Shown: positions 38,157 through 40,682 of the stretch, piece by piece
Layout: the number at the start of each line of letters is the position of its first letter
Numbering within the stretch: position 1 is the first letter of the stretch
Translations under genes and position numbers: made by a program
The notes under the pieces: generated by a model
The model's database searches: none
What the model saw: only the letters and a program-made list of their open reading frames with translations
What the model was told of the DNA's origin: nothing
From: an uncultured bacterium
GTDB taxonomy: Bacteria > Bacillota > Clostridia > Lachnospirales > Lachnospiraceae
DNA: 64,000 bases
Direction: 5' to 3'
NCBI GenBank assembly: GCA_947651225.1
Contig: CANSYK010000002.1
Span: forward strand, 54,804-118,803

Positions 38157-40682
38157 ATGAAAAAGAAAAAAGAGCGGCAGACAAAGCCGGGAAAATTTAT
38201 TTCGATAAAAACTAAGCTGTTAGGCATTATACTGCCTGTTGTTATTATTATTGTCACAGTGCTTACCGGGTTGTCCTATATTGTATCAAAGAATGTGATG
38301 AAAGAAAATGCAGAGGAGCTGTTGCAAACATCGGTAAAAGGGCAGGTTTCTGATATTGAGGCATGGCTGGACCAGAACCTGAAATCCTTCCAGGTGGCAA
38401 AGCAAGCGTTAGAGCAGGTGGATCTTAATGAGAAACAGATACAGGGGTTCCTGGATGCTTATTACGGTTTTGACAGTAATTATCCGAATGGGCTGTATAT
38501 AGCAGACGACGATGGTGCGTTTTATTGTGCAAAGGCGGCACAGGGGGTTGTTTTACGGGAACCCAATGAGCAGGGCAATTATATAAACAATGGTGATTTT
38601 TCGGATGCCGGGGATTTGGCAGATGATACAGGATGGCAGTTTTTCACGGCAGAAGGCGGGGAAGCTGCAGCAGAAATTAAGGGCAATGAAGTTTCCATTA
38701 CCACAGAACAGGAGGGAAGTGCAGACTACAGTGTACAGTTTGTGCAGGCAGATCTTCCGGTAAAAAAAGGCAGTACATACCGTGTCAGTTTTGATGCCTA
38801 TGCGGCGGCAGACAGGACAATGAAAGTGGGAATATCAGCGCCGGATCGTGATTATAAGCGTTATCTGGAAGATACCGTTGTGGAACTTACAACGGAAAAG
38901 AAGACCTTTACCTATGAATTTACCATGGGGGATGAAGATGATGCCAATGGCCGCCTGGAATTTAATCTGGGTGCGTGTGGTTCAACAGATGCCGTTATGA
39001 TTAGCAACGTATCTGTTCTTATGACAGATGGGGCTGAGGAGAAAGGCGATGCTTCAGAGGATTTGGCAGGGGATGTGACACAGACGGAATGGTTCCAAAG
39101 TGGTCTGTCAAGGGTGAATATGGGATTTACGAATGCCTATGCGAATGAGAAGGGAGAGCAGATAATCAGTGCCTGTGGTATGCTGCGGTCAGCTTCGGGA
39201 AAGGTGTGTGTGCTTTCTGCAGATATGTCCCTTGATAAGGTCAGCGTCTATGTAAACAGTTTTGTAAAAATGGAGGCTGCGGAGGCGTTTCTGGTCAATA
39301 AAGAAGATAATACAATCCTTGCTTCCCGTGATACAAGCCTGATTTCCAAAAGTCTGGATGAAACAGGCGATACTTTTATGAAAGCAGTAGGAGACAGGAT
39401 TTCAAAGGCAGATCTTTCTATCGCTGAAATTGATGGAAATATGACAGGATTTGAAGAAATAGAAGGAACAGACTGGATGTTAGTGTCTTATGTTCCGGCG
39501 AAAGTAGTTTACCAGGATTTGAATAATATTAGGAATATCATGGTTCTTTTTGGGGTGGTTTCAGTATTGATCCTGACCGGATTGCTGGAACGGATTATCC
39601 ATATTGTAATTAATCCAATCAAGCAGCTGACAGATGTGATTAAAGCAATGACAAATGGAGATTTTACTGTGCACAGCCACACAAAAAGCAATGATGAAAT
39701 TGGAGTGATGAGCTGGTGTGTTGAAAAGTTTATTGATACCATGTGCGACATGATTGCTTCGATTAATAAAGTGTCAGGCGTTCTGCACAATCAGGCAGAC
39801 AGCAGCAAAGACGTATCTGTTCTGATGTTTTCTGCTTCTAAAACGCAGAACCAGTCCATGAAAGAGTTAAATGAAACAGTAGAGCAGCTTTCCATTTCTG
39901 TCAATGGGATTGCAGAGAGTGCAACGACATTAGCAACGCTTGTAACAGAAACCCGGGATGACGGGGAAGGCGTAAGCAGCAAAATGAATGAAACGGTTGA
40001 TATTTCCCGGAAAGGTAAAGCGGCCATGCAGGATGTGAGTGCAGCGATGCTAAATATTAATAATTCTGTAAAAAAACTGCAGCTTGCGATTGATGAGGTG
40101 GAAAAGGCGTCAGAGGAGATTACGAATATTACAGGGGTAATTGGCAGCATTGCGGACGAAACAAGCCTGTTATCGTTGAATGCATCCATTGAGGCTGCCC
40201 GTGCAGGTGATGCGGGGAAAGGCTTCACTGTAGTGGCGACTGAAATCGGAAAACTGGCGCAGACAAGTATGGAGTCGGTTCAGCATATAGACAATCTTGT
40301 TTTGGAAATCAAATCTTCCATTGGAGATGTGATCAGCCAGGCAAGTGATAGCGTGGTTAATATTAATAACAGCAATGCCCTGATTGAAAATGCTGCAGAA
40401 ACTTTTGACATAATTTTTGAAAATATTGATATGGTTGGGAATTTAGTTCATCAGATGATAGAGAAAGTGGACCAGGTAGAGGATGAGGCCAGAAATGTCG
40501 CTGCGATTTCTGAGGAGCAGGCGGCAAGTGCGCAGGAAATTGCGGCTTCCTCAGATATTTTGGTAGAGCAGGCGAACAGCCTGATGACAAATAGCGAAAC
40601 GGTAACGAATGAATCCAATGAATTGACAAATTCTGCAAAAGAGCTTTCAGCACAGATAGGAGTTTTCAAAATTGGAAGTTAA
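38157..40682 (+). CDS. Chemoreceptor with a carbohydrate-binding-like module inserted in its Cache sensor
   Basis: An 841-residue methyl-accepting chemotaxis protein: first helix at about 21-44, Cache sensor from about 48, second helix at about 463-482, HAMP, and a signalling tip LLSLNASIEAARAGDAG. It is a paralogue of the receptor at 4104 (shared NYPNGLYIADDDG, SGLSRVNMGF and SVYVNSFVKMEAAEAFLV), but residues about 131-291 are extra. They form a beta-sandwich-like unit starting VVLREPNEQGNYINNGDF and containing DYSVQFVQ, KGSTYRVSFDAYA, TTEKKTFTYEF and DDANGRLEFN. About 90 of 158 positions of that unit match residues 495-653 of the GH16 enzyme encoded at 53784. AATTCGGAGG precedes the start. 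The GH94 gene follows 61 bases later with no clear terminator. It likely directs motility towards beta-glucan or its fragments. Confidence 0.93.
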   Translation: MKKKKERQTKPGKFISIKTKLLGIILPVVIIIVTVLTGLSYIVSKNVMKENAEELLQTSVKGQVSDIEAWLDQNLKSFQVAKQALEQVDLNEKQIQGFLDAYYGFDSNYPNGLYIADDDGAFYCAKAAQGVVLREPNEQGNYINNGDFSDAGDLADDTGWQFFTAEGGEAAAEIKGNEVSITTEQEGSADYSVQFVQADLPVKKGSTYRVSFDAYAAADRTMKVGISAPDRDYKRYLEDTVVELTTEKKTFTYEFTMGDEDDANGRLEFNLGACGSTDAVMISNVSVLMTDGAEEKGDASEDLAGDVTQTEWFQSGLSRVNMGFTNAYANEKGEQIISACGMLRSASGKVCVLSADMSLDKVSVYVNSFVKMEAAEAFLVNKEDNTILASRDTSLISKSLDETGDTFMKAVGDRISKADLSIAEIDGNMTGFEEIEGTDWMLVSYVPAKVVYQDLNNIRNIMVLFGVVSVLILTGLLERIIHIVINPIKQLTDVIKAMTNGDFTVHSHTKSNDEIGVMSWCVEKFIDTMCDMIASINKVSGVLHNQADSSKDVSVLMFSASKTQNQSMKELNETVEQLSISVNGIAESATTLATLVTETRDDGEGVSSKMNETVDISRKGKAAMQDVSAAMLNINNSVKKLQLAIDEVEKASEEITNITGVIGSIADETSLLSLNASIEAARAGDAGKGFTVVATEIGKLAQTSMESVQHIDNLVLEIKSSIGDVISQASDSVVNINNSNALIENAAETFDIIFENIDMVGNLVHQMIEKVDQVEDEARNVAAISEEQAASAQEIAASSDILVEQANSLMTNSETVTNESNELTNSAKELSAQIGVFKIGS

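Follow-up and report, generated by a model that had tools for sequence, protein, structure and literature searches.

Can a chemoreceptor take a polysaccharide directly as its input? Sugar chemotaxis is known to proceed via small molecules or via separate binding proteins. The question is raised by a locus in a 64,000-nucleotide stretch of DNA (the window) from an uncultured bacterium of the Lachnospiraceae (GenBank assembly GCA_947651225.1, contig CANSYK010000002.1, positions 54,804 to 118,803), in which an 841-residue open reading frame (38157..40682, plus strand) encodes a chemoreceptor whose sensor is interrupted by a carbohydrate-binding module (CBM) of the CBM4 type. The closest relative of this module in the genome belongs to a likely secreted beta-1,3-glucanase encoded 13 kb away. 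We consider it reasonably probable that the module captures beta-1,3-glucan chains directly as receptor input, alongside input through the Cache domain or a binding protein.

The receptor and its inserted module

The receptor is identified as a methyl-accepting chemotaxis protein (MCP) by Pfam matches to HAMP (residues 480-518) and MCPsignal (635-786) and by two transmembrane (TM) segments, for which hydropathy windows centre on residues 22-39 and 464-479. From the N terminus it comprises TM1, a dCache sensor with the inserted module, TM2, HAMP and the MCP signalling domain, so that the module lies between the two membrane segments. A first-pass annotation, made from the letters of the window alone, had described an insert at 38547-39029 (receptor residues 131-291) that a paralogous receptor does without. 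These coordinates were confirmed, with the module delimited here to residues 131-290 (38547..39026, plus strand), and the paralogue at 4104-6110 does align on either side of the insert without having one itself, as do the receptors of four related public loci (L051-L054). The module is joined to the Cache domain by a linker of about residues 291-305 (39027..39071), which has low predicted local distance difference test (pLDDT) scores and varies in length among relatives; the remainder of the first Cache subdomain and the second subdomain follow (about residues 306-458; 39072..39530). The reading frame is continuous across the insert, which by sequence and predicted structure sits in a loop between a Cache strand and a segment carrying W312, R319, N321 and Y328. 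These four residues, just past the insert, are invariant in 45 aligned sequences, module-bearing and module-less alike (receptor numbering is the position in the first row of the alignment plus 28); 36 of the 45 have a CBM_4_9 match at E 0.001.

Profile search and structure prediction agree that the insert is a CBM4-type module within a predicted dCache sensor, not a part of an ordinary Cache domain. The Pfam family CBM_4_9 matches residues 140-272 with 72.6 bits (E 5.4e-20; cut-off 25.9). The dCache_1 profile stays below its cut-off (21.9 bits versus 45) and covers only residues past the insert. The insert cannot be the whole reason for this low score, since the module-less L051 receptor likewise gave no match to the profile at E 0.001. 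AlphaFold models contain an intact dCache fold, with tandem Cache subdomains, and a CBM4 jelly roll. The model of the module has ten strands, a predicted ten-stranded beta-jelly roll, with a predicted template modelling (pTM) score of 0.86, and its fold ranking is headed by CBM4 chains. By both sequence and fold its top solved relative is 1gui, the laminarin-binding CBM4-2 of Thermotoga maritima laminarinase 16A, with a fold Z of 21.2 versus 19.5 for cellulose- and xylan-binding CBM4s. Module residues W160, Y191, Y233 and Y236 face 1gui W22, W59, W100 and Y103 (HMMER indexing, counted on the alignments). The Thermotoga module belongs to an enzyme and its binding has been measured, whereas the receptor module interrupts a chemoreceptor Cache subdomain and its binding is presumed from this likeness.

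The enzyme with the related module (53775..57260, plus strand) has two Big_2 domains, a GH16 (glycoside hydrolase family 16) domain and four CBM_4_9 modules by Pfam. The protein has an EIDIME motif at residue 357, and among solved structures beta-1,3-glucanases and laminarinases match its catalytic domain best. Its module 1 (residues 495-657; 55257..55745, plus strand) is the nearest to that of the receptor. An ungapped local alignment of receptor residues 126-287 with enzyme residues 492-653 has 91 of 162 positions identical; within the module limits the count is 90/157, in keeping with the roughly 90 of 158 estimated by eye in the first-pass annotation. The alignment scores 466; when the insert was shuffled 200 times, scores averaged 42 and reached 74 at most. 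The remaining three modules of the enzyme were rightly called far more distant (31/136, 42/142 and 44/140 identical positions). Across the source genome (4.38 Mb in 167 contigs, 96.7% complete) there are five CBM_4_9 matches, one in the receptor and four in the GH16 protein. The genome also has six flagellin and two CheA matches, and the receptor can therefore belong to working chemotaxis. One MCP signalling-domain match, on contig C24 (15571-16062, minus strand), contains a single in-frame TAG.

Spread and history of the module

That further receptors of this architecture exist is apparent from several searches. A protein search scored 7993 candidates, 2346 of them at E <=0.001; the best 120 protein clusters, which include the window's own, all have CBM_4_9 and 119 have MCPsignal. 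A scan restricted to one genome per species yielded 24 related public loci, 20 of which carry the module at the same site; L051-L054 lack it. By their titles 15 of the 24 are Lachnospiraceae, and five more are Lachnoclostridium or Roseburia. In a family sample of 299 genomes, four, counting that of the window, have the full-length architecture, and a search of 391 genomes of the class recovered it from the window's genome alone; few candidates were scored per genome in either search. Three of the four receptor-bearing genomes of the family sample are apparently those of L034, L045 and L048. The other 26 loci read in that sample comprise 19 GH16 enzymes, in which the module directly follows the catalytic domain, and seven module-less receptors.

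Aromatic positions of the module are conserved. W160, Y191, Y233 and Y236 are identical in 21 of 21 receptor modules; position 233, always tyrosine in receptors, is tryptophan (13), tyrosine (9) or phenylalanine (3) in 25 enzyme modules. In the two pairs tested the module is under purifying selection, with ratios of non-synonymous to synonymous substitution (dN/dS) of 0.18 versus L031 and 0.11 versus L032. Together with the fixed site in most loci, this suggests that the module is more than a dispensable tether.

For a receptor tree the insert columns were left out and the paralogue served as root. A single, strongly supported branch (100/100) contains all 21 module-bearing receptors and excludes L052 and L054. 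L051 lies inside, grouped with the window's receptor at 100/100, and L053 occupies a long branch without supported placement (47/8), so that its lack of the module may be either ancestral or a loss. In a tree of the modules themselves, the 21 receptor modules form one clade (97/93; 99% of bootstrap trees) that sits among the 25 enzyme modules, which follow GH16 catalytic domains. This tree was rooted on the third and fourth modules of the enzyme; they join by long branches, the bootstrap had not settled, and the root and the direction of transfer are accordingly less sure than the receptor clade. The history that the trees favour has a single transfer, probably out of the enzymes and into the receptor, after which L051 lost the module in frame. 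The earlier suggestion that the module was recruited between enzyme and receptor thus gains a favoured direction, from GH16 enzymes to the receptor; the transfer is not a recent event within this genome, the window's receptor module and its own enzyme module not being sisters.

Two other histories were set aside. Repeated independent insertions are unsupported, there being a single clade and one site. Recent gene conversion between receptor and enzyme within one genome is not the general rule, since the receptor modules form one clade. In the six loci with both genes that were compared, receptor and own enzyme modules are 48-68% identical, and the averages against other receptors are 61-67%; L041 is the sole case in which the own enzyme (68) comes as near as the other receptors do (67).

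L051 (receptor at 6972-9008) is a natural module-less orthologue within an otherwise similar phosphorylase locus. Pfam finds no CBM_4_9 in this receptor, whose in-frame junction reads LQKPDEMEN, by eye similar to LREPDxxGN, the alignment consensus of the first stretch of the module; the junction is apparently the scar of a lost module. The L051 genome has three other CBM_4_9 matches, two of them above the cut-off. No GH16-plus-module enzyme was found at E 1e-30 in the genomes of L051 and L053, both with module-less receptors. Co-loss of module and enzyme was considered and not retained, as it concerns only two genomes (p 0.12 versus 14/20) and the L052 genome keeps such enzymes despite its module-less receptor.

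The gene neighbourhood

Immediately upstream of the receptor gene lies that of a Peripla_BP_4 sugar-binding protein of the MglB/CUT2 class (37088..38062, plus strand; PF13407, E 1.2e-44), a likely receptor partner whose nearest solved chains are CUT2/MglB-type sugar-binding proteins. Immediately downstream is a GH94 protein (40744..43443, plus strand) homologous to laminaribiose phosphorylase, matching 6ggy with 999.7 bits over residues 6-895 versus 75.4 for the best cellobiose phosphorylase. The gaps are 94 and 61 nt, respectively, which makes co-expression of the receptor with both neighbours likely, and a scan placed no terminator-like site on the plus strand of either gap.

In each of the 24 related loci the sugar-binding protein gene adjoins the receptor gene, on its upstream side in 23 (including all 20 that bear the module) and on its downstream side in L054, an arrangement in which a likely partner of the Trg/MglB kind is encoded with the receptor. 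Receptor and binding protein look like an ancestral unit, since the module-less paralogue also has a Peripla_BP_4 gene downstream (4104-7133, plus strand) and the same pairing recurs in nine of nine further module-less relatives.

The phosphorylase homologue is likewise a frequent companion. It lies within the fetched stretch in 17 of the 20 module-bearing public loci and is the next gene in 16. It is missing from the stretch in L042, where the contig ends 183 bases past the receptor match, in L049, where the GH16 enzyme is next, and in L050, which has other genes. At the genome level the homologue was found in 19 of 19 module-bearing public genomes searched (L046 excluded), or 20 of 20 with the window's genome, a count in which a targeted set and the family sample are pooled. 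The test proper is within the family sample, where 53 of 299 genomes have the homologue: 4/4 receptor-bearing genomes as compared with 49/295 others (p 9e-4, kinship ignored). We give no weight to a locus-level comparison (18/21 versus 2/13, p 8e-5): of the nine module-less loci that were added, seven are closer to the 4104 paralogue than to the receptor considered here, and the loci cannot be treated as independent. A GH16 enzyme with the module lies within the fetched stretch in 6 of the 20 module-bearing public loci and was found in 13 of 19 module-bearing genomes, one of them cut by a contig end. In L049 (12685-17715) a module-bearing receptor is followed directly by a GH16-plus-module enzyme, after which comes a second MCP whose dCache_1 match is sub-threshold.

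The cluster continues downstream on the plus strand with a second GH94 phosphorylase (44407..46821; Pfam GH94), whose best PDB match is 8bou, named N,N'-diacetylchitobiose phosphorylase (1516 bits versus <=473 for cellobiose phosphorylases), an odd finding in a beta-glucan cluster. An ATP-binding cassette (ABC) sugar importer (46960..50240) consists of a 468-residue first gene and two permeases, the latter assigned by Pfam and NCBIfam. The first gene (46960-48366) is matched by neither Pfam (E 0.01) nor NCBIfam (E 1e-10); close homologues are present in many related loci, and by position it is likely a solute-binding protein. A GH3 glycosidase follows (50378..52834; Pfam GH3, GH3_C and Fn3-like), in which the domain order is inverted, the C-terminal domain occupying residues 35-284 and the catalytic N-terminal domain residues 589-811. 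An AraC-type regulator is also encoded downstream. At 60262-61875, a minus-strand gene for a Big_2-domain protein overlaps the start of a plus-strand response-regulator gene.

Direct glucan sensing and its alternatives

How could these parts work together? In the proposed scheme, the likely secreted GH16 enzyme would cut beta-1,3-glucan outside the cell, as its homology suggests, and soluble chains would enter the space that separates the wall from the membrane; there the receptor module would bind them in a mode akin to that of the Thermotoga module, which grips the inside of a laminarin chain. Occupancy of the module could change the first Cache subdomain; alternatively, the module could raise the local concentration of glucan products available to the Cache domain and to the partner sugar-binding protein. 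The change would be relayed via TM2, HAMP and the signalling domain to CheA, the established route in receptors of this class. The ABC importer and the laminaribiose phosphorylase homologue would use the glucan products, and the cell would swim towards beta-1,3-glucan. The first-pass annotation had named beta-glucan or its oligosaccharides as the attractant. The likely sugar can be narrowed to beta-1,3-glucan, given that a laminarinase module is the nearest solved relative and a laminaribiose phosphorylase homologue is encoded next door.

Several observations weigh against direct glucan input. The linker after the module is predicted to be disordered (pLDDT <50 for receptor residues 292-304, numbered 264-276 in the model), so that a simple mechanical coupling becomes less convincing, and with its modest pTM the ectodomain model does not fix the placement of the module relative to the Cache domain. 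The sugar-binding protein gene accompanies every relative read, module-bearing or not; the Cache part may hence signal without the module, and indirect sensing remains a live alternative or a partner input. The L051 receptor, a close relative with 83.5% identity across receptor residues 295-841, does without a module in the same type of locus, and the L050 receptor lies apart from any glucan gene found. Among the 19 module-bearing genomes, five lack a GH16 enzyme with the module and one has a GH16 domain only, in a short frame; several are draft metagenome-assembled genomes. The likeness of the second GH94 to diacetylchitobiose phosphorylase means that the cluster may handle more than beta-1,3-glucan. 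Finally, a promoter-like site precedes the receptor (38114-38142, 9/12 matches), which makes a shared transcript less certain; such sites occur at chance frequency in the region.

The most serious competitor, which we regard as unlikely, though clearly ahead of the others, holds that the module is an accessory that anchors or concentrates glucan near the receptor and sets sensitivity, and that the Cache domain takes the actual signal from a small sugar or from a binding protein loaded with sugar. The constant company of the sugar-binding protein gene, also beside the nine further module-less relatives, fits this well, as do the four Cache residues that are invariant regardless of the module, the flexible tether in the prediction and the natural loss of the module in L051. 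Its difficulty is that the module is under purifying selection in both pairs tested and occupies a constant position in 20 of the 24 loci, most of which have the laminaribiose phosphorylase homologue. It is improbable that the module instead binds another glycan (a beta-1,4 or mixed-linkage glucan, xylan or a wall glycan) that the receptor then follows. Cellulose- and xylan-binding CBM4s share the fold class at only slightly lower Z, and the catalytic specificity of the enzyme is assigned by homology; against this, 1gui ranks first by sequence and by fold, and the neighbouring phosphorylase is far closer to laminaribiose than to cellobiose phosphorylases. A folded spacer that has lost sugar binding seems very improbable: tyrosine at position 233, where 13 of 25 enzyme modules have tryptophan, might hint at it, but the position is aromatic in all 21 receptors and all 25 enzymes, polar and aromatic positions common to the enzymes are kept, and dN/dS is low (0.11-0.18). 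An assembly or annotation artefact fusing two genes can be dismissed almost entirely, the reading being already refuted by other genomes: the frame is continuous, and the identical architecture and site recur in 20 public loci and among the best 120 protein clusters listed.

Direct capture of beta-1,3-glucan may also be put in a stronger form, which we advance tentatively and rate below an even chance: polymer binding itself would drive chemotaxis, with neither uptake nor a separate binding protein, a beta-1,3-glucanase module having moved beside the Cache pocket in a Lachnospiraceae lineage. If so, sensor, scissors and phosphorylase would be tuned to one glycan through one shared module.

Among known systems, a study of Sphingomonas sp. 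A1 describes pectin chemotaxis via a periplasmic binding protein, SPH1118, that is tied to uptake genes and proposed to touch an MCP-like receptor (PMC7055323). In the receptor at 38157, unlike that system, a module of a polymer-binding family lies within the receptor itself, though a binding-protein gene is adjacent too. Marine bacteria swim towards laminarin, likely the same class of polymer, and uptake of the whole polymer was suggested; the signalling role of large molecules was said to be largely unknown, and no chemoreceptor for it is named in the passages of that report consulted (PMC10700628). Roseburia polysaccharide loci contain MCP genes, and the sections seen of two papers mention no such fusion (PMC11913394, PMC5320581). 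A term search of the main text of a 2025 survey of gut chemoreceptor specificity returned no 'carbohydrate', 'CBM' or 'polysaccharide' (PMC12415202). The receptor resembles PctA, PscC, Mlp24/37 and the Roseburia uracil receptor (9hvj) in its dCache sensor and differs in the inserted carbohydrate-binding module, which none of the titles of the dCache structures listed mentions. The sequences are already public under automatic names; by titles and abstract openings, no description of a chemoreceptor with a carbohydrate-binding module was found in searches of one open-licence library.

Taken together, a conserved receptor family, apparently of single origin, holds a sensor module from the enzymes of a polysaccharide-use locus. 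Because the family is conserved and its module-less relatives provide natural controls, direct sensing of a polymer can be put to the test. Exchange of modules between digestive enzyme and receptor would be a way to set receptor specificity, and it may be relevant to the way in which Lachnospiraceae locate the glucans of fungi, algae or cereals.
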